Shown: positions 48,196 to 59,697 of the stretch, in pieces
How the letters are laid out: every line of letters begins with the position of its first letter
Position numbering within the stretch: the stretch's first letter is position 1
From: Candidatus Zymogenus saltonus
Lineage (GTDB): Bacteria; Desulfobacterota; Zymogenia; Zymogenales; Zymogenaceae
Length of the DNA: 64,000 bases
Direction of reading: 5' to 3'
Assembly: GCA_016929395.1 (NCBI GenBank)
Contig: JAFGIX010000019.1
Span: 1 to 64,000 of the forward strand
Made by a program: the position numbers and the translations under genes
The notes under the pieces: generated by a model
What the model saw: the letters and a program-made list of their open reading frames with translations, nothing else
Told to the model about the DNA's origin: nothing
The model's database searches: none

Positions 48196-48603
48196 TCAGT
48201 ATTCCACAACGGGAGGGAGTTTCTTCGCCTGCTCGATCCAGTCGGCTACGCTCTTCTCCGAGGGGAGCCTCCTTACGAGGTTCTTCTTATCGTTGATCTC
48301 CTTGATCTGCTGATAGAGGTTATCCGCCCTTCTGTTTCTGAGCTCCTTGACCGTATCGACGCCGGCTTCTTCCAGGAGGTCGGAGTATTCCTCCGCCACA
48401 CCCTTTATCCTCATCAGGTCAGCCAGATTTACCCACTCCAGGATCAGCTTGTGTCCGATGCCCGTTGAGTCTTCCAGCTCCTTTCTCCCCTTAGGGGTTT
48501 TGCCCCGTTCGAGGAGCTGGTTGGTGTTTGTAATTCCAACTTTGTTGAGTTTTCCCTTGTAAGCGTCTCCGATTCCCTCTATGTCTTTGATCGGGTATCC
48601 CAT
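48196..48603 (-). CDS. DUF4332-type helix-hairpin-helix protein
   Basis: A 135-residue soluble protein has two helix-hairpin-helix-like repeats: PIKDIEGIGDAYKGKLNKVG (about 4-23) and NLADLMRIKGVAEEYSDLLE (about 58-77), each followed by TNTNQLLERG or VDTVKELRNR. This is the DUF4332 pattern, related to DNA-binding HhH folds of PolX or ribosomal S13. Function unproven; DNA binding or structural role likely. It has a good RBS (AAAGGAG) before the ATG and stands alone. Confidence 0.85.
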   Translation of the reverse strand: MGYPIKDIEGIGDAYKGKLNKVGITNTNQLLERGKTPKGRKELEDSTGIGHKLILEWVNLADLMRIKGVAEEYSDLLEEAGVDTVKELRNRRADNLYQQIKEINDKKNLVRRLPSEKSVADWIEQAKKLPPVVEY

Positions 48604-49180: not shown

Positions 49181-49624
49181 CTAATTAACGACTGTGGTTC
49201 CGTCGCTCTTGATCTCTAAAGACATACCGTTTTTTACATAGTTTATAAAGTCGTCGCCAAGGCAATCAACGGTGACAATCCTTTTGTTCAGCCATATATC
49301 TGTCAGGATCACACCAGAGCAAGCTAAGGAGTCTATATTTTCAGAAAACAGGAAGGCCTTTGGTGAAAGGTTCAATTCCGAGGCGGTCATAATGACGAGA
49401 CCGCCCATGGTGGATCCAATTGTTTTTGGCAAGCATATTATCTTATCGGTGAGATCCTTTTTATAAAGGTCAATGTTATTTTGGTCGGAGCATATTGCGC
49501 GCTTTGAGCGCTTGATCGCGCTTTTGATGTATGATGCGAGGGTGTTGAAACCCTCCCTCGTGACGATCGCTTCACCAGTCACGTTGCCTTGAAGTATTAC
49601 TCTCCCCTTAAATTCCCTTTTCAT
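49181..49624 (-). CDS. Aconitase X small (swivel, DUF126) subunit
   Basis: This is the small subunit of an aconitase X-type dehydratase, split from the catalytic subunit encoded just upstream. The 147 residues fit DUF126: FKGRVILQGNVTGEAIVTRE at the start, CLPKTIGSTMGGLVIMT near 65 and ACSGVILTDIWLNKRIVTVD near 102. ATG 49624 is selected because AGGAG is 8 bases upstream; a TTG two codons earlier is weaker. In known systems the pair acts as phosphomevalonate dehydratase (archaea) or cis-3-hydroxyproline dehydratase (bacteria). Confidence 0.88.
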   Translation of the reverse strand: MKREFKGRVILQGNVTGEAIVTREGFNTLASYIKSAIKRSKRAICSDQNNIDLYKKDLTDKIICLPKTIGSTMGGLVIMTASELNLSPKAFLFSENIDSLACSGVILTDIWLNKRIVTVDCLGDDFINYVKNGMSLEIKSDGTTVVN

Positions 49625-49642
49625 CACCAAGACTCCTTTTAT

Positions 49643-50923
49643 TTACCCTGTTATAATATCAAGCACGTCATCGTCATTGCAGAACCTTGCCGTCGTATAG
49701 GTGCGAAGCTTGTTCGAGTTTGTAATCGTGGGTTTTTTTGCTGAGAGGGGATTGCTCATAAACGCCACCGGGCATATCGAAGATAATACAATCCCGTTCC
49801 TCTTCAACAGTACTGAAGTGGATCTGTTCTCATCGAACTTCTTGACCACGGCGGGAGGCGCGTTAAGTATCGTCTGAATCTTAACCTTATTTCTCCCCTT
49901 TTTTTGTAATGTTCCTGATATGTTTTCAATCCACCAAGAGACCTGCTCAAACGACAGGTGGGGACAACCTATCAAACATCTTTTCGGCTGGCCATTTGGG
50001 TTTTTCCAAAGAACGGGATATGAGGCTACTATCCTCTCTATCTCGCAATCATCGACAGTATAGTTTCTAAAACCTTTGGAGATGAGTTTTCTCTTATCAT
50101 CCTTCGCTTCCGGGGTTATATTTTCCACATGGAACAAACCCACCGCCCCGTTGGAAGCGGAGGCAGCACCCATATCCTTCATATAGTCCCTGATTTCAGT
50201 GGTGCTTCTATTCTTGAAATGAGTGTCAAGCCCGACAATATAGGGCACATCCTCCATTACCTTCATCCCTATCGCCGAGCCCAAAACCTGGGGATTGGGA
50301 AGTTCCGACGTCTTGAGCTCTACCAGCCAGGATGCCTTTCGTCCCTCATCGGTCAAGAAGCCGAAATAGGGGGCCTTGCCGATGATGTTCATTAGAACGT
50401 CTATTCCCACGGAATTCCTGTTGGTCCGAGCGCCGAGAACCGAATTGGCAAACACCACCGCCGAAGACTCCGACCACGCGAGGACCTCCCCCTTTTTCGG
50501 TATATTCCCGACCTCCGGGAGATAGCAGGCGCAAGAAAATGTGTCGCTGCTTATTATCCCCAGTATTTGGAGCTTCCTTTCAAGTTCGGGTTGGGAGCCA
50601 TAGACGAATTTGGATAGGACCTTCTCCAAAAAGGAATAAGGTATCCTTTTAAAATCATACGTTCTTGGGTTAGTTGTAAAAGAAATTTTCGGTTTCAACC
50701 CAGCCTCGATTATCTCATCGAGTACTTTATAATATGGGGTTATGATTGATGCCCCAAACGACATGGCGAAGTGGGGTGTGCCGGCCACAGGGACGAGTCT
50801 ATCGGCGCCGAACGCTTCCCCGTAGAGAATTACCGATCTCAGTATCTTTCCAAGTACCGTATTTTGGTCGTCCTTTAAGATTCTTTCCTCTTCCTGTGTA
50901 AGTTTACAAATACCCTTTTTCAT
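49643..50923 (-). CDS. Aconitase X catalytic subunit (DUF521)
   Basis: This is the large subunit of a hydro-lyase with an iron-sulfur cluster. The 426 residues carry SSDTFSCACYLPEVGNIPKK near 125, where the Cys pair is one cluster ligand site, VVFANSVLGARTNRN near 158, and two more Cys in CLIGCPHLSF (about 320) and SSICPVAFMSNPLSAK (about 380). It begins with the family's typical LTQEEERIL segment. The gene lies between the amidohydrolase and the swivel gene (18 bases), with which it must form a heterodimer. Substrate cannot be read from sequence; neighbours point to catabolism rather than mevalonate synthesis. Confidence 0.9.
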   Translation of the reverse strand: MKKGICKLTQEEERILKDDQNTVLGKILRSVILYGEAFGADRLVPVAGTPHFAMSFGASIITPYYKVLDEIIEAGLKPKISFTTNPRTYDFKRIPYSFLEKVLSKFVYGSQPELERKLQILGIISSDTFSCACYLPEVGNIPKKGEVLAWSESSAVVFANSVLGARTNRNSVGIDVLMNIIGKAPYFGFLTDEGRKASWLVELKTSELPNPQVLGSAIGMKVMEDVPYIVGLDTHFKNRSTTEIRDYMKDMGAASASNGAVGLFHVENITPEAKDDKRKLISKGFRNYTVDDCEIERIVASYPVLWKNPNGQPKRCLIGCPHLSFEQVSWWIENISGTLQKKGRNKVKIQTILNAPPAVVKKFDENRSTSVLLKRNGIVLSSICPVAFMSNPLSAKKPTITNSNKLRTYTTARFCNDDDVLDIITG

Positions 50924-50956: not shown

Positions 50957-51790
50957 TCAAATGCTCTGAAGCCCAAAAATTCTTTTTGCATTTTCATGGA
51001 GGAATAGAGACTTCACTTCTTTATCGAGCTTGAGAGAATCAAGGTCTTCAAGGCATCTTTCGGCCGTCAGCATGGGGTAATTTGTGCCGAATAGGACCTT
51101 CTTCTTGCCGTTTCGTTTCATATAGTCTAAAAGCTCTGCGGGGAATCTCTTTGAAATGTAAGCGGAAGTTTCAATAAAAACATTAGTATGTTTTGTGGCA
51201 ACGGCTATCATCTCTTGCGTCCAAGGATACCCGATGTGTCCGCACACGATCTTCAATTCAGGAAAATCCAGAGCCGCTTCATCTATGTATGGAATAGGCC
51301 TTCCAGGCTCGGACGGGCACATGGGGCCTGTATGGCCGACCTGAAGACACACCGGAATACCCAGCTTAACGCACTCGGCAAAGATCGGATAGTAATACCT
51401 GTGAGTGGGCGGGAGGTTCCAGTACCATTGAACGATCCTGAGGCCGATAAATCCCAATTCTTTGGCGCAGCGATTGAGTTCTCTTATTCCCTCCATGGGC
51501 CTGGAGATATCGACGGAAGCTATTCCCCGGAATCGGTCGGGATGGTGATTGACAATTTCCTTCACCTCGTCGTTTGAAATGAGTGCTCCTTGCGGACCCC
51601 ACCACGCACAGATGAGCCCTGTTTGAACACCGGCCCTGTCCATAGTCTCTAAAGTATATTCAACCGGTATCTCCTGCTCGAATTTTTCAATTCCCATCCA
51701 GCGACGAAGAGATTCAAACATCGGATGGTTAATAAACTTCATCGTGGGATGCTGCATCCATACGTCAATGATATTGGAATCACCGTTCAT
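50957..51790 (-). CDS. Amidohydrolase-2 family protein with altered metal site
   Basis: The 277-residue TIM barrel is of the ACMSD/decarboxylase-like amidohydrolase_2 group. The usual N-terminal H-x-H is replaced by IDVWMQHP (only His14), and the Asp of the C-terminal G-T-D-x-P is Asn (LFGTNYPM near 240). Other ligand positions, QVGHTGP near 150 and CGHIGYPW near 185, remain. It may bind metal weakly or act without it. It sits 33 bases before the aconitase X gene and 29 bases after the MarR gene, so it is part of the same operon. Confidence 0.85.
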   Translation of the reverse strand: MNGDSNIIDVWMQHPTMKFINHPMFESLRRWMGIEKFEQEIPVEYTLETMDRAGVQTGLICAWWGPQGALISNDEVKEIVNHHPDRFRGIASVDISRPMEGIRELNRCAKELGFIGLRIVQWYWNLPPTHRYYYPIFAECVKLGIPVCLQVGHTGPMCPSEPGRPIPYIDEAALDFPELKIVCGHIGYPWTQEMIAVATKHTNVFIETSAYISKRFPAELLDYMKRNGKKKVLFGTNYPMLTAERCLEDLDSLKLDKEVKSLFLHENAKRIFGLQSI

Positions 51791-51819: not shown

Positions 51820-52281
51820 CTATTTGCTGTTTTGTTTCATTTCAGCTTCGCAGCTTATTAGGTTGTCGAGGATTCTTCGGAGTTTATCCTCTAAGTCGTC
51901 CAACTCCTCTTCCGTAAAACCCCTGCATACAATGGCGGCTATCTCTTCGGAGACTTTGGCATAGGTATCCATTAGATTTTGGTCTTTCTCGGTAAGCTTG
52001 ATGAGGACCTCGCGACGGTCGCTTTTTGAACGAATTCGCTTAATATGCCCAGCTATCTCCAGCCCGTCCAACATAGCCGTCAGCGTAGACTTGCTGAGGG
52101 AGGTTTCCTTGGCAAGCTGTTGGATGGGGATGTTGTCTTTGCGCCATAAAACGAAGAGTATCCTCCCCTGGGCGGGGGTGATATGGCCGATTTTGTGTTC
52201 TCTGAGGATATTCGTAAAAATCCTGCCCGCTGTCTGGTTTATCCTGGCGACAAGAAAGGCGCCCTCTCGTTTTAACTTCAC
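51820..52281 (-). CDS. MarR-family transcriptional regulator
   Basis: The 153-residue protein has the winged HTH in order: ITPAQGRILFVLW near 34, IQQLAKETSLSKSTLTAMLD (recognition helix about 55-72), wing KRIRSKSDRREVLIKLTEKD near 80, and C-terminal dimer helices. DRR in the wing is the family signature. MarR proteins usually repress their own operon and release DNA on binding a small aromatic or phenolic ligand. GTG start. It is the first gene of the operon with the amidohydrolase and aconitase X subunits; dyads fit as its operators. Confidence 0.92.
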   Translation of the reverse strand: MKLKREGAFLVARINQTAGRIFTNILREHKIGHITPAQGRILFVLWRKDNIPIQQLAKETSLSKSTLTAMLDGLEIAGHIKRIRSKSDRREVLIKLTEKDQNLMDTYAKVSEEIAAIVCRGFTEEELDDLEDKLRRILDNLISCEAEMKQNSK

Positions 52282-52541: not shown

Positions 52542-53909
52542 TTACCCCATCTTTTTCAGGAGCGAGCGCGCCGCTACGAGTATCGGGTCGATGGTGGGCG
52601 TAAACGGCGGGGCGTAGGCGAGGTCGAGGTCGACGATGTCGTCGATAGAGAGGTTTCCGAAAAGCGCCGCGGCAAGGATGTTTATCCGGTGGCCGGCGCC
52701 GTCCCTGCCGGCGATCTGGGCGCCGATGAGCCTTCGACTCTTTCTCTCGGCCACGAGGTGCACGCGAATCGGGGCTGATCCGGGATAGAGCCCGGGCCGT
52801 GATCTCCCCTCGATCGTCTCGCAGACGGCGTCGATCCCCTCCTTTTGGGCGGCTGAGAGGGTAAGCCCCGTGAATCCGACCTCGAGGTCGAACAGTTTGA
52901 AGTGGGCCGAGCCCAAAACTCCGGGATAAACTATATCTCCGCCGGCGGCGTTCTCCCCGGCGACCCAGCCCTGCTTGTTGGCGAGGTCACCGAGAGCGAT
53001 GTTTACCCCTTTTCCCGTTATGAGGTGCTTCACCTCGACGCAGTCGCCCGCGGCGTAGATATTTTCGTCCGAAGTTCGCTGGCGCTCGTCGACCCATATC
53101 GCCCCGGTCTCGCCTATCTTTAGGCCCGCATCCACCGCCAGCGAAACATTGGGCAGAAAGCCGACCGAGACGAGGACCATATCCGCATCGAATCTTCCCT
53201 TGTCGGTCACTACGGATCTGACGTTTCCGTTTGAGACGTCAAGTGAGGAGATCTTGGCGTCGGTGACGAACTTCGTCCCCTTTTCGGAAAGCTCGTCCAA
53301 GACCATCTCCGCAATATCCTTTCCGAGCTGCCTCATCGGGAGGTCACGGCGGTGGACGATGGTGTTTTCTATCCCCAGCTCCCCGAAGGCCTCGGCCATC
53401 TCGAGGGAGATGAAGCCCGCCCCGATCGTCACAACCCTTTTGGGTCCTTTATCGTTGATATAATCCTTTATCCTCTTCCCGTCTAAGAGGGATTTGAGGG
53501 AAAATACATTCGGGGCGTCCTCGTTTTCTACCCCGAGTTTTCTGGAGCGGGAGCCGGTGGTGATGATCAGCTTGTCGTAGGGTTTTGTCAACTCCTCGTC
53601 CTTATCGAGATCACGAATAAGTATCTCCTTTTTATTCCTGTCGATATGCAGGACCTCGTGATTCGTGTGGATGTCGATGTCGTGATCTTTCTTGAAGACT
53701 TCGGGTGGCCTGACGACGTATTTGTCAATGACCCTTGACTTGGCTACATCTCCGATGTAGTAGGGCATAAGTCAGGCGGAATAGGAGATATATGGATCCT
53801 TTTCGTAGAGGTCTATCTTCAGGTTTCGATCCGTCCTGCGGGCGCGGCTGGCGGCGGCGGTTCCGGCCGCCACACCCCCGCAGATCAGAAGGCCGCTTTG
53901 GTTTTTCAT
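52542..53909 (-). CDS. Probable selenocysteine-containing CoA-disulfide reductase / NADH oxidase family flavoprotein
   Basis: Read through an in-frame TGA (53774-53772, codon 46), the minus strand encodes 455 residues with a normal start (MKNQSGLLICGGVAAGTAAA, GGGAG upstream). Domains: FAD binding (about 7-120), NADH binding with TIGAGFISLEMAEAFGELG near 155, AAGDCVE near 290, and the C-terminal dimerisation domain. The TGA falls in ISYSA-[TGA]-LMPYYIGD, where relatives have SYSACG(L/M)PYYI and the Cys is the catalytic redox residue. A SECIS-like hairpin lies 18 nt after the TGA. Selenocysteine at the active site is therefore the best reading; without recoding, the gene would be split (the downstream ATG at 53768 lacks most of the FAD domain). 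Likely role: NAD(P)H-dependent thiol/disulfide or oxygen reduction. Confidence 0.8.
53744..53760 (-). promoter_or_regulatory. SECIS-like stem-loop for TGA at 53774-53772
   Basis: On the minus strand CTACATC-GGA-GATGTAG is a perfect 7-bp stem with a G-starting 3-nt loop. There are 18 nt between the TGA and the loop. In bacteria SelB binds such a hairpin inside the coding region just after UGA; loop G and spacing agree with that model as I recall it. Confidence 0.7.
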
Positions 53910-53965
53910 GGTTAAAATCTCCCAAGCGTTTAATTTAATATTGGTTTGTTTTTTGGTTGAGTTTC

Positions 53966-53994
53966 ATTATCGATGGGGAAGGTTGAAATGTCAA
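53966..53994 (-). promoter_or_regulatory. Promoter of the selenoprotein candidate
   Basis: On the minus strand TTGACA (53994-53989), 17-bp spacer, GATAAT (53971-53966), about 57 bases before the ATG at 53909. The rest of the gap to 54217 holds a G-rich tract (54005-54040) and no gene that I can support. Confidence 0.65.
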
Positions 53995-54217: not shown

Positions 54218-57200
54218 TTAACGACTTTTTCTCCCGGCTATCTTCAGCTTTATATCCTCGATGACAAGATACAGACATGGAATTATGACGAGGGTCAAAA
54301 GGACGCCGAACGCCAGTCCCCAGACGATGGAGACCGCCATCGGTGTCAGCATCGGCTCCCTCCCGCCGATACCGATCGCCATGGGGAACAGACCGCCGAT
54401 GGTCGTCAAGGTGGTCAGCAGGATCGGCCTAAGGCGGATCTTTCCCGTCTCGATGACCGCGTCATAGAGGTCTGTTCCCTTCTCCCTCGCCCTGTTGATG
54501 AAATCGACCATGACTATGGCGTCGTTGACGACAATCCCTACCAGCGCAATGATTCCGATGCCCGCCATCAGGGAAAGCTCGATGTTCGAGATAAAGAGGC
54601 CGAACACCACCCCGATGAAGGAAAAGGGCACCGTAACCATTATGATAAGGGGCTGCACGTACGATCTGAAGAGGGCCGCCAGGATTATGTAGATGAGCAA
54701 GATTGCTATTAAGAGAGAGCGAAGGAGCGAGAGGATAGATTCCATCGTGTCTTCATATTCCCCGCCGTACTTGAAGGTATAACCCGGGTACTTGACACTT
54801 CTGGTGCCGAATTTCTTGATCAGCGCCTCGTTTATCTCCTTCGACGTGTTCTGACCCTCGACGAGATTGGCCGATACCGTGATGGTGCGCTCGCGGTCGT
54901 CATGGTAAATCCTCAACATCCCGTCGCCGTAGCTCACATCCGCAAAGGTCTTTATGGGGATCCTGTCACCGTTGCCGTTGGAGACGGAGAAGTTCATGAG
55001 ATTGTTGAGATTTGCCATATACTCATTGTATTTTACGATGATGTCGATTTTGTCCGTGCCCCGCATTATCTTTCCCGCATCCCCCCCGGAAAAGGCGCTG
55101 CGTAACTCCGTGGAGACGTCGTTCACGTTGAGCCCCAAGGATCCCATCGTGTGTTCGTCGTAAATAAAGCGAATCTCCTCCTTCCCCCTCCTGTAATCGT
55201 CTTCGATATCCACCACTCCCTTCATCGTGGCCAATTCCTTTTTAAACTCCTCCGAAAGCTTCTGGAGGGTCTCGAACTCGTCTCCCTGGATGCTGACCTC
55301 AACGGCCGAGCCCCTCGGCGGCCCCCTCCTCTGGGACCTGTACGTAATGGACGTGGCCCCGGCGATGAGATCGCTCTCCTCCCTGAGCTCTTCGGTGATT
55401 GTTTCGGCCCCGATCTTTTTGTATCCGTGTTCGGTCAGCTCCACCCGGATACGCCCGCTATAGGAGCTGGAGGAACCGCCCACGGACGCCATGATAACAG
55501 AAATCTCGTCTTTCGGGCGCTCAAGGATGAGCTCCTCAACCTTTTTAATCACCCGGTCGGTCGCATCCAGATTGCTGTCCGTGGGAAGGTTTACAGAGAC
55601 CCTGAATTCTTCGGCGATGGAGCTTCCCATAAAGACGAATTTCATGGTAAAGAGGCCGAAGAAGATGGTTACAATCGCAACCCCGACGAGACTCGAGAAA
55701 ACCAGATAGCGCCGTCTCAATATCGAGGTAAGGAGGTTGCCGTAATAATTCCTGACTCGATTAAACCAGGCCCTCGCCTCTCTGTTGGCCTCGGATACGT
55801 TATCCTTGACGAAATCGTGGAGGTGTGAGGGAAGGATAAGAAACGCCTCCAAAAGCGAGGCCAGAAGCGTTACTATGACTACAAAGGGAATCGTCTTTAA
55901 AAATTTGCCCATGATCCCCGATATAAAAAGGAGCGGGATGAACGCCGCAATATTCGTGGCGATGGCCGCAATGATGGGCATAATGACCTCCTGCGTGCCC
56001 AAGACAACGGCCTCAGTGAGGTTGTACCCCATCTCGCGGTATCGAAAAAAGTTTTCAGCAACGACTATGGCGTCGTCGACAACTATACCCAGAACGAGGA
56101 TCAGGGCGAACATGGAGAGGAGGTTTAGGGTGATCCCAGCGTAGCTCATTATGATAATCGTGAGAAGAAACGAGAAGGGGATTCCCATCGAGGCCCAGAA
56201 GGCCACCCGCGAGTCTAAAAATGCGTAGAGAATCAGGATCACCAGCATCATGCCGAGGGCGGCGTTGAGCAGAAGCGTCTTCAGCCTTCTTTCCACGTAT
56301 ATCGATTCATCGTCCGCCAGCGAGATATTTATTCCTTCATCGAGATGAGCCCGCTCGTTTTTAACGATCCCTTTGACCTCTTCGGCAATGTTGATAACGT
56401 CCCCGGAGCCGCTCTTCATGACGTCAAGCAAAATCGCCCGGCGCCCGTTGAACCTGACATAGGACTCCTCTTCCTCAAAGGTCTCGGCCACATTTGCCAC
56501 ATCCCCCACCCTTACAACGCCGTCCGCGTAAGAGGAGACGATGATGTTTTTAATATCTTTGGCCCCCTTTACCTCTCCGATGGACCTTATCATAAGCTCC
56601 TTCTCACCCGAATCAAATGTTCCGCTAGGGAGGTTGAGGTTGCGCTTCTTTATGGCGTTTATGATAGTGCTGAACTTGAGGTTCAGGGCGTCGAGTTTCC
56701 TGGGGTCAACTTCCACCCAGACCTCCCGATCGAGGTACCCATCCATATCAACATTGCTGACACCCTTAATCAATTCAATCTCGTCCTTCAATCGGTCGGC
56801 GGTGTTCCTGAGCTTCTCCTGATCGGCATCGCCCCAGATGCCTATCGTGATGACGTCGAACCTCGGCTCCCTCTTCGTCACGTTTGGATCCTCGGCGTCC
56901 TCGGGGAGGTCGGAGACCTTGTCGACCTCGCTCTTTATATCGTTCAGGAGCTGGTCGAGCTTTGTCCCCTCGATGCCCGCCTCCGCCTTAATGGTAATGG
57001 CGGAAGACCCCTCGTTGCTGGTGGAGGTGATCGTGTCGATCCCATCCACGTCGAAGATCTGCTCCTCGATAGGGACGGTGATGAGATTTTCAATCTCCTC
57101 CGGCGAGGCGCCCTTGTACGTTGTGTTTATGTTGATGTAGCCGAAATCGACGGAGGGAAAGACCTCCCTGTTGAGCTTGGTCGCAAAATATATCCCCATT

Positions 57201-57268
57201 ATGAGAACCGCTACCGTTATCATATTGACAAGGACGGAATTTTTTACCGAGAATCGAGCTATAGACAT
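54218..57268 (-). CDS. RND-type efflux pump inner-membrane transporter (HAE/AcrB-like)
   Basis: This is the proton-driven pump of a tripartite efflux system. The 1016 residues show the RND layout: first helix (about 9-28), periplasmic porter loop (30-325), helices 2-6 with the proton-relay pair in LGIVVDDAIVVAENFFRY near 400, a second porter loop (about 545-845) and helices 8-12 with AGIGIIALVGIVVNDAIVMV near 925. The membrane adaptor and outer-membrane protein genes lie upstream on the same strand (TolC, adaptor, RND order). Substrates are unknown; hydrophobic compounds are most likely. AAGGAG precedes the ATG. Confidence 0.95.
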   Translation of the reverse strand: MSIARFSVKNSVLVNMITVAVLIMGIYFATKLNREVFPSVDFGYININTTYKGASPEEIENLITVPIEEQIFDVDGIDTITSTSNEGSSAITIKAEAGIEGTKLDQLLNDIKSEVDKVSDLPEDAEDPNVTKREPRFDVITIGIWGDADQEKLRNTADRLKDEIELIKGVSNVDMDGYLDREVWVEVDPRKLDALNLKFSTIINAIKKRNLNLPSGTFDSGEKELMIRSIGEVKGAKDIKNIIVSSYADGVVRVGDVANVAETFEEEESYVRFNGRRAILLDVMKSGSGDVINIAEEVKGIVKNERAHLDEGINISLADDESIYVERRLKTLLLNAALGMMLVILILYAFLDSRVAFWASMGIPFSFLLTIIIMSYAGITLNLLSMFALILVLGIVVDDAIVVAENFFRYREMGYNLTEAVVLGTQEVIMPIIAAIATNIAAFIPLLFISGIMGKFLKTIPFVVIVTLLASLLEAFLILPSHLHDFVKDNVSEANREARAWFNRVRNYYGNLLTSILRRRYLVFSSLVGVAIVTIFFGLFTMKFVFMGSSIAEEFRVSVNLPTDSNLDATDRVIKKVEELILERPKDEISVIMASVGGSSSSYSGRIRVELTEHGYKKIGAETITEELREESDLIAGATSITYRSQRRGPPRGSAVEVSIQGDEFETLQKLSEEFKKELATMKGVVDIEDDYRRGKEEIRFIYDEHTMGSLGLNVNDVSTELRSAFSGGDAGKIMRGTDKIDIIVKYNEYMANLNNLMNFSVSNGNGDRIPIKTFADVSYGDGMLRIYHDDRERTITVSANLVEGQNTSKEINEALIKKFGTRSVKYPGYTFKYGGEYEDTMESILSLLRSLLIAILLIYIILAALFRSYVQPLIIMVTVPFSFIGVVFGLFISNIELSLMAGIGIIALVGIVVNDAIVMVDFINRAREKGTDLYDAVIETGKIRLRPILLTTLTTIGGLFPMAIGIGGREPMLTPMAVSIVWGLAFGVLLTLVIIPCLYLVIEDIKLKIAGRKSR

Positions 57269-57298
57269 TGCGTCGTGTTACTCCTTAAAAGTCACTCC

Positions 57299-58255
57299 TT
57301 AATAGTCTTCCGTAACGACAATCGAAGAATCCTCTTTAAGATTTTCCTTGCCGACAACAACCACCTTCTCCCCGACCTTTATGCCCGAGAGCGCCTCGGC
57401 GCTCTTCTCGTTCACTATCCCGAGGGTAAGGGGACGCTTTTTAGCCTTGTTGCCCTCGACCATGAAACAGTACGGCCCGTCTCTTCCCTGCCTCTCGTAC
57501 ATAAGGGCCTTGGCGGGGATGATCATCACCCCCTCTTTTTCCTCGGTGATTATGAAGATATCCCCGAACATTCCGGCTATGAGGGACGTAATGCCGTCCT
57601 TGAAGAGGAGCTCGACACGGGCGGTGCGGGTGGTCGTATCGAGAACCGGGCTTACCTGGCTTACCTCGCCGATGTAGGCCACGTCCGGGGTGGAGGGGAC
57701 GACGAGCTCCGCCTTCATCCCGACCTTCATAAGAGGAAGCTCATTGTCCGGCACCTTGATCGTCACCGTAATTCCGCGGCCCCCCACGATCAAGGATATG
57801 GCGGTCGTCTCCGTTGCGAGCTCCCCCCTGTCGAGGTAGTTTCGGGCAACGATTCCGGATATGGGTGCCCTGACGGTTACCGGCATGTAATCGTCCCACC
57901 TCTCCTGGCGCTCGAGCGTTGCTATGACGCTCCCCCTACTGACGTAATCCCCCTCCTTGTAGTAGTATTTGATGATCTTTCCCGCCGCGACGCTGAAGAC
58001 CTTGACCTCCTCCTCCGCGTGGATCTCTCCTGAATAGAAGAGGGCGCTCCTTATTTTGCCCAGTTCGACCTCCGCCAGCATTACGGGGACGGCCCTGTCA
58101 GAATCCATCCCCCTTCCCCTCTTGCCGGGCGACTTGGAGGCGAAAAAGGCTATTACCAGAACCACCATCAATAAAAGGACAAGGATGATCCCTATCCTGG
58201 CGTACTTTCTCTTCAATTTATCCAATATTTTTTTGATCAATCTAAAACTCCTCAT
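57299..58255 (-). CDS. RND efflux periplasmic adaptor (HlyD/MFP family)
   Basis: The adaptor links the inner-membrane pump to the TolC channel. Residues 1-40 hold a cytoplasmic basic start and one transmembrane anchor (IGIILVLLLMVVLVIAFFA). The lipoyl-type barrel halves follow (EVKVFSVAAGKIIKYYYKEG about 78-97 and VRAPISGIVARNYLDRGEL about 128-146) with an unusually short helical hairpin between them. The beta-barrel and membrane-proximal domains end with LSGIKVGEKVVVVGKENL. 318 residues is compact for the family. It lies 30 bases before the pump gene. Confidence 0.92.
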   Translation of the reverse strand: MRSFRLIKKILDKLKRKYARIGIILVLLLMVVLVIAFFASKSPGKRGRGMDSDRAVPVMLAEVELGKIRSALFYSGEIHAEEEVKVFSVAAGKIIKYYYKEGDYVSRGSVIATLERQERWDDYMPVTVRAPISGIVARNYLDRGELATETTAISLIVGGRGITVTIKVPDNELPLMKVGMKAELVVPSTPDVAYIGEVSQVSPVLDTTTRTARVELLFKDGITSLIAGMFGDIFIITEEKEGVMIIPAKALMYERQGRDGPYCFMVEGNKAKKRPLTLGIVNEKSAEALSGIKVGEKVVVVGKENLKEDSSIVVTEDY

Positions 58256-58353
58256 CAGAAATCAAAATACTCTTGAAAAAAAATCAACGGCCCCCCCATC
58301 CTCATCCCCCTTTGATCTCGTTTCGGTGGACGGTCGTTCCTCTATAATATCTA

Positions 58354-59697
58354 TCAGTTGGTCGTTCCCTCTCTCCCCAGAAGCTTCCTTATCTGAGAGA
58401 GCGACTTCTCGTGATTGAACAGGGCGGTCAGATAGTTCAGCTTCGCCTCGGTGACCGCCAGGCGCGCGTCTAAAAGCTCCAAAAGGGTGCCGACCCCGTT
58501 TTCGTAGCGGAGCTCCGCGGTCTTCAGGTTTTCCTCTGAGAGCCCTATGTTGTACTCCTGCAGCTTGATTATCTCCTTGGACTCGACAAGGTCGTAGTAG
58601 GCGCTCCTGATGCTGTACTCCATATCCCTCTTTGTGTCTTTAAGCTTGAGCTCGGCCACTTTATACTCCGCGTTCGCCTGTTTCTTCTTGGCCATCGAGA
58701 GGACGAGGTCGGTGATCGGTATCTCAACCACCACGCCCGCCGTGAACTCCCAGTCCGGCTCGTTGAAGCTTATCTTCTCCCATCCGGTCGCGGAGTGGTC
58801 GTAGTTGGCAAAGGCCTTTACCGCCGGGAAGAAATCCCCTATGGCGATATCAACGTTCCTGTCGGCGATCCGCTCGTTCAGCCCCGCGATGTTCCGCTCG
58901 GGGCTTTCGGTCTCGGCGGCGGTAAGAAGCAATTTCAGATCCGCCTCCCTCTCGTAATATTTGAGCTCCCCCTCTATCTCGATCGGCTTTCCCAGGTCGA
59001 TGTCAAGGAGCTTCTTCAGGTCTTCGTAGGCGACGGTAAGGTCGTTCTTCGCCTCGATGAGGGAAGTGCGGGCGTTGATCGCCTCGACCTCTATGCGCAT
59101 TACGTCATACTTCGGGACGAGGCCGTTTCTGTATTTGTCTTCCGTCTTTTCCAGGTTCCTCGTCAAGAGATCCAGCTCCTCCAAACGCATCTCGATCTTC
59201 TTTTTGGCCAGGAGAATCGCGTAAAAGGCGACCTTCGTATCGTAAACCGCCTCGTTTACGGCGATCCTGTACTGCTCTTCAGCGACTTGGAGTTGGAGGT
59301 GCGCGATGTTCAGCCCCCAGATGACCTTCCCTCCCGAAAAGAGGGTGAGGGAGGCGGTGATGCCGAAATCGTATTGATCGTCCGGCTCGTCCAGCGGGGT
59401 GGAAAGCCCGGAAGAGAGACCCGATGCGGAAGTGGTCTCCGGGATCAGGCCAGTGTAGGTGTATTTCGCCTCGGCGTTGACCGAAAGTATGCTCGACCAT
59501 TTCTCGAAGACCACGCCCTTCGCCAGTTTTATCCCCTCCTTGGCCGTAAGGATATCGGATGACCTTTCCATGGCAATCTCTACGCAGTCGTCGAGGGTGT
59601 ATTTGGATACCGGCCCTCCTTCCTGGGCGTAAAGGGGGGCGAAGAGAAAAAAGACGAGGATTAAAGGGGAGAAGAAATTTATAATAACGGTCTTCAT
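58354..59697 (-). CDS. TolC-family outer membrane efflux protein
   Basis: This is the outer-membrane channel of the efflux complex. The 447-residue precursor has a signal peptide (about 1-24, ending LYAQE) and two repeats of the OEP coiled-coil type: SKYTLDDCVEIAMERSSDIL at about 30, LTRNLEKTEDKYRNGLVPKY near 185, then EENLKTAELRYENGVGTLLE near 400, the classic end-of-helix motif. The alpha-helical barrel and beta-barrel segments are of normal length. It heads the operon TolC, adaptor, pump. A 9-bp dyad lies in its leader. Confidence 0.94.
   Translation of the reverse strand: MKTVIINFFSPLILVFFLFAPLYAQEGGPVSKYTLDDCVEIAMERSSDILTAKEGIKLAKGVVFEKWSSILSVNAEAKYTYTGLIPETTSASGLSSGLSTPLDEPDDQYDFGITASLTLFSGGKVIWGLNIAHLQLQVAEEQYRIAVNEAVYDTKVAFYAILLAKKKIEMRLEELDLLTRNLEKTEDKYRNGLVPKYDVMRIEVEAINARTSLIEAKNDLTVAYEDLKKLLDIDLGKPIEIEGELKYYEREADLKLLLTAAETESPERNIAGLNERIADRNVDIAIGDFFPAVKAFANYDHSATGWEKISFNEPDWEFTAGVVVEIPITDLVLSMAKKKQANAEYKVAELKLKDTKRDMEYSIRSAYYDLVESKEIIKLQEYNIGLSEENLKTAELRYENGVGTLLELLDARLAVTEAKLNYLTALFNHEKSLSQIRKLLGREGTTN

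Follow-up and report, generated by a model that had tools for sequence, protein, structure and literature searches.

The family to which the gene described below belongs was entered in 2006 as "NADH oxidase," a predicted selenoprotein family with one member, from Geobacter metallireducens, on a list of selenoproteins that also includes SelD (PMC1794560), and it was seen again under the same name in ocean metagenomes in 2008 (PMC2398784). Reviews of 2022 and 2026 carry it as FAD-dependent oxidoreductase (CoA-disulfide reductase), with WP_011365774.1 as the representative (PMC9312934, PMC13188914), and the selenocysteine (Sec) motif given for it in 2026 is UGxP (PMC13188914). Solved relatives reduce per-, poly-, and disulfides at the expense of NAD(P)H, using a single Cys located beside FAD and a bound CoA (PMC7969121, PMC6026696). 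Among these, Npsr from A. fulgidus prefers per- and polysulfides, and CoA-disulfide is not reduced (PMC7969121).

The window, i.e., the whole stretch of 64,000 nucleotides of Candidatus Zymogenus saltonus DNA that was analyzed (contig JAFGIX010000019.1, positions 1 to 64,000), contains a gene of this kind. With great confidence, it can be explained as encoding a selenoprotein in which UGA46 would be decoded via SelB and a hairpin, and which would be a flavoenzyme of the CoA-disulfide/CoA-persulfide reductase group.

The gene and its predicted enzyme

Once translated, the frame is interrupted only by TGA at codon 46 and ends with TAA (Table 1). The peptide around codon 46 reads SYSA-U-LMPYYIGDV; the FAD domain is conserved 5' of TGA46, and the remaining enzyme follows 3' of it in the same frame. 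The original prediction had described this single TGA, together with a 7-bp hairpin with a G-opened loop 18 nt past it and an intact promoter and RBS. Translation confirms the first, the hairpin is found as described, and promoter-like and RBS-like motifs were located upstream of the ATG.

Table 1. Positions, within the window, of the predicted selenoprotein gene and its associated signals.
Feature	Position	Strand	Remarks
Predicted Sec-containing CoA-disulfide/persulfide reductase homologue	52542..53909	-	455 aa, U46, ATG to TAA
In-frame TGA, residue 46, aligned with the catalytic Cys of homologues	53772..53774	-	Predicted to be read as selenocysteine
Putative apical SECIS hairpin CTACATC[GGA]GATGTAG	53744..53760	-	7 bp, loop 18 nt after TGA, also encodes YIGDV
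Possible lower stem UGACUU/AAGUCA, including UGA itself	53736..53774	-	From the fold of 53774-53735; seen in this gene
Promoter-like TTGACA-17-GATAAT	53966..53994	-	11/12 consensus matches, not counted as evidence of function
RBS-like GGGAG	53919..53923	-	9 nt 5' of ATG, from sequence

The best NCBIfam model for the window protein is TIGR03385 (E = 2.1e-125, 419 bits), but the score does not reach the equivalog cut-off of 578.8 bits, so that the protein is to be regarded as a homologue and not as a certified TIGR03385 equivalog, and CoA-disulfide is not secured as its substrate. The CoA-disulfide reductase (CoADR) signature, S-x-x-x-C before PYY together with a C-terminal YAPP, is found with the predicted Sec in place of Cys, and S42, residue 46, P49, and Y432 do not vary across the alignment. 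A rhodanese domain was absent in a Pfam scan of the protein, which ends at residue 455, shortly past YAPP. Regarding the structure, the AlphaFold model has a pLDDT of 88.6 and is least certain at residues 44-49 (pLDDT under 50), and among PDB folds it is most similar to those of the A. fulgidus persulfide reductase, the P. horikoshii CoADR, and the B. anthracis CoADR-RHD.

By analogy with the solved relatives, the enzyme may be a homodimeric FAD flavoprotein of the CoA-disulfide/CoA-persulfide reductase group without a rhodanese tail, in which NAD(P)H would reduce FAD, FAD would reduce the mixed bond between residue 46 and the bound CoA (Se-S here, not S-S), and the CoA thiolate and the selenolate would then reduce a persulfide, polysulfide, or disulfide. 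Considering the chemistry of the solved relatives and the missing rhodanese tail, a Sec-based, CoA-dependent per/polysulfide or disulfide reductase is proposed, which most likely would use bound CoA and NAD(P)H to reduce persulfides, polysulfides, or CoA-disulfides. That the main activity of the selenoenzyme is instead that of an NADH oxidase or peroxidase, on O2 or H2O2 and not on persulfides, polysulfides, or CoA-disulfide, seems unlikely. While family members are annotated "NADH oxidase," A. fulgidus Npsr has NADH oxidase activity (PMC7969121), and Nox and NADH peroxidase have the same fold, the H2O-forming NADH oxidase model yields 245 bits vs. 419 for the CoADR model, and the closest solved proteins in the fold search are CoA-persulfide/CoADR enzymes with 33-40% identity, compared to 23-27% for Nox/Npx. 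The faster thiol or peroxide reductase put forward in the original prediction is possible, but sequence and fold point to CoA-disulfide, persulfide, and polysulfide reductases and not to peroxidases.

Regarding the gene neighborhood, a TolC/membrane-fusion/AcrB-type RND efflux operon (54218-59697, minus strand) ends just upstream of the Sec reductase gene, an order also present in one distant relative (L162 in genome G032), there followed by a cation-efflux (CDF) gene, and in none of the others compared. Downstream are found a MarR regulator (51820-52281) and an Amidohydro_2 gene (50957-51790), the latter adjoining a two-piece aconitase X made of a large subunit and a swivel domain (49181-50923, minus strand). 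These upstream and downstream neighbors are mostly not common to the relatives compared and therefore give no clue to the substrate. A DUF4332 helix-hairpin-helix-like protein is encoded, standing alone, at 48196-48603 (minus strand).

Homologues and the hairpin after the TGA codon

Relatives were searched first in a set of 59 and then in 395 genomes of the phylum; with a single protein as the query no relatives were found, whereas an alignment query retrieved them. Across both sets, dozens of full-length homologues have exactly one internal stop, a TGA. At the catalytic position, the extracted loci carry TGA in 46 cases and TGC/TGT in 87; three more TGA loci had been missed only by the motif search, and 29 further ones were added later. 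After removal of near-duplicates, and with a set of distant Cys proteins left out, 63 TGA genes, mostly from one phylum, and 54 Cys genes were kept for the tree, the TGA column of the former being the TGC/TGT column of the latter.

The apical loop of the window hairpin, GGA, is small, opens with a G, and lies inside the coding region. The first 40 nt from the TGA (53774-53735) fold with -9.6 kcal/mol (z = -2.54 vs. shuffles), and comparison of the hairpin region with Rfam gave chance matches only. Because the peptide by itself tends to form a hairpin, synonymous codons were randomized with the peptide fixed, being drawn from the own usage of each gene, and 1.2% of such randomizations equaled the window hairpin (p = 0.012). 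By the same procedure, the actual hairpin ranks within the top 5% for 28 of 34 TGA homologues vs. 2 of 82 Cys homologues, and hairpins are stronger behind TGA than behind Cys codons (Mann-Whitney p 1e-15). One TGA homologue, L108, is devoid of a convincing hairpin under the hairpin rule used.

In the branch of the window gene (type A, peptide PYYIGDV), a loop GGN is located 18 nt after the TGA on a stem of 7-11 bp. Among 22 distinct type A sequences, 91% of the cells are paired and three pairs change on both sides, with a covariation score of 0.158 vs. 0.087 in shuffles that was reached by none of 500 shuffles. The stem is kept in L152, where Tyr is replaced by His (TAC to CAC) and the Val codon GTA by GTG, as well as in L031, where TAC is changed to TAT and GTA to ATA; in L142, a D-to-N change opens the top pair. 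The Cys genes L197, L199, and L200, nested within the type A clade, keep most of PYYIGD and have a broken stem. In this branch, the SECIS and the peptide YYIGDV would be locked together.

Predicted decoding of TGA46

The assembly containing the window, which is 99.6% complete, harbors selA (E = 1.6e-178), a full-length selB (645 aa frame, E = 8.7e-119), selD (E = 2.7e-108), and a tRNA-Sec with anticodon TCA (Rfam 74.9 bits, gathering score 47). In selD, too, a TGA lies within the frame, close to the N-terminus (L009:1531-1533, MVKAAG-U-AAK); such a codon is common in selD among Sec-using bacteria, and the product is likely to be a selenophosphate synthetase that contains Sec. Of the 47 TGA-carrying genomes with a completeness of 90% or more, 46 have selB, the exception being G035 (94% complete, TGA form), where a selB match is absent. 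The presence of selB does not discriminate, since it is also found in 25 of the 28 genomes sampled that have no listed TGA form.

Compared to the closest homologue (67% identical), the 38 codons 5' of TGA46 show a dN of 0.16 and a dS of 1.2, and dN is low in eight further pairs, of which one has a saturated dS. The codons upstream of TGA46 evolve as protein-coding sequence under purifying selection, which speaks against a pseudogene and also against a product made solely from ATG 53768. A 408-aa ORF does begin at this ATG, two codons past the TGA, and automatic pipelines would call it. However, that the TGA is a real stop, due to a recent nonsense mutation or a sequencing error and leaving either a pseudogene or only a C-terminal part, is highly improbable: besides the upstream selection, TGA occupies this codon in more than 60 homologues, spread over many families, whose frames are otherwise open, a product begun at ATG 53768 would be without the GGVAAG motif that binds FAD at the N-terminus, and a conserved, covarying hairpin is unexpected behind a dead stop. 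Standard gene callers would pick ATG 53768 and thereby cut off both the catalytic residue and the FAD-binding motif, so that wrong annotations are probably frequent among such enzymes. A reassignment of TGA to another amino acid in this lineage (e.g., Trp, code 4/25) would explain its position within an open frame but is hardly conceivable, since TGA is the normal stop of 11 of the 39 ORFs in the window that do not overlap and reach 200 aa or more, codon 46 aligns with Cys and not with Trp, and selABCD are found in the genome. The purifying selection upstream, the use of TGA as a normal stop, and the Cys of the homologues speak against ordinary ALTERNATIVES.

Selenocysteine, the 21st amino acid, is almost certainly inserted at TGA46, the catalytic position of the flavoenzyme, judging from the sequence comparisons. 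SelB carrying Sec-tRNA(UCA) would dock on the mRNA hairpin, with its loop 18 nt after the UGA, and UGA46 would be decoded as selenocysteine during translation. The original prediction had placed Sec at the catalytic Cys and a bacterial SECIS just past the TGA, and had named missing selABCD and tRNA-Sec and decayed frames in close relatives among the signs against it. The comparison supports this placement and shows neither of these signs, as U aligns with the Cys of homologues, the hairpin is conserved, covarying, and favored by synonymous codon choice, selA, selB, selD, and tRNA-Sec(UCA) are all present in the genome, independent genomes share the TGA, and the frames of relatives are intact with one TGA at the same place.

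Sec and Cys in the tree and comparison with known systems

Type A forms one supported clade (SH-aLRT 99) enclosing three Cys rows, and four other types sit elsewhere in the tree among Cys proteins. In type B, with the peptide (I/V)G-x-x-VD and most of the UGxP members, the loop is usually 22 nt after the TGA; type C (YVSGQ) has a loop GGTC at 21 nt, type D (NIADPGRD) a loop GGTC at 27 nt, and type E (NLAEPERG) a loop GGA at 20 nt. A hairpin 27 nt after the TGA is seen in L186 (G292), where it reads AGATCCC[GGTC]GGGATCT, and, in a shorter form, in L033 (G035). The residue following U can be L, S, E, D, P, A, or G among the TGA homologues and is outside the conserved upper stem; since position 47 varies freely, Leu47 is rejected as the mark of a SECIS constraint that it had been supposed to be.

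On the tree as drawn, at least nine Sec/Cys changes are counted, at least five of them forced by well-supported branches, although the split between gains and losses is tentative because the tree is a quick, midpoint-rooted one without bootstraps. The four further hairpin geometries in other branches suggest repeated Cys-to-Sec gains. It can be put forward, with modest confidence, that Sec was gained several times at the same catalytic residue, in five lineages with hairpins differing in position and sequence (loop 18, about 22, 21, 27, and 20 nt after the UGA), and that Cys reversions inside a Sec clade lost the hairpin. Alternatively, and tentatively, these geometries may reflect hairpin turnover inside an ancient Sec lineage. 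At least two Cys reversions accompanied by loss of the hairpin are tentatively recognized. Genome G032 holds closely related Sec (L031) and Cys (L197) copies, the latter keeping PYYIGDI with the hairpin lost, and the pair looks like a duplication followed by a Sec-to-Cys reversion.

If Sec was indeed gained repeatedly, the family constitutes a natural experiment on the origin of a SECIS inside a coding sequence. Having grown from one listed member in 2006 to 63 genes with Sec gains and losses, it could serve to test what makes selenium worth its cost to anaerobes in sulfur (persulfide/polysulfide) chemistry and how the evolution of a SECIS proceeds when the sequence must also code. No description of several hairpin architectures or of Cys reversions was found in a few literature searches of open-licence papers.

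The window gene belongs to an already known selenoprotein family, in a large, little-described branch of it. It had been put forward as a probable new selenoprotein, which does not hold at the family level, since published lists have carried the family since 2006. It has in common with the listed FAD-dependent oxidoreductase (CoA-disulfide reductase) the assignment to TIGR03385/COG0446, a predicted Sec aligned with the catalytic Cys, a predicted bacterial SECIS past the UGA, and a deltaproteobacterial setting. In contrast to the published UGxP, the window gene has U-L-M-P, where only the Pro is kept, and its branch has U-[LSEDP]-x-P; UGxP was taken as describing the listed representative and not as a hard rule, and other TGA homologues in the tree do have it. 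The hairpin also differs from those of the UGxP branches compared, the loop being 18 nt after the UGA in the branch of the window gene and about 22 nt in type B, and the family, with one member on the 2006 list, amounts to 63 non-redundant TGA genes in the present collection.

With regards the solved enzymes, the A. fulgidus NADH-dependent persulfide reductase (6pfz) is about 39-40% identical to the window protein over the FAD, NADH, and dimerization domains, with a TM of 0.93, and its catalytic Cys42 aligns with U46. It has a Cys and a C-terminal rhodanese domain, whereas the window protein has the predicted Sec and no rhodanese domain (PMC7969121). The P. horikoshii CoA-disulfide/CoA-persulfide reductase (4fx9, 5l1n; PMC6026696) shares the same fold (TM 0.92, 36% identical) and, like the window protein, is devoid of a rhodanese tail; its single active-site Cys, C48, aligns with U46, but this enzyme is archaeal and uses Cys, not Sec.
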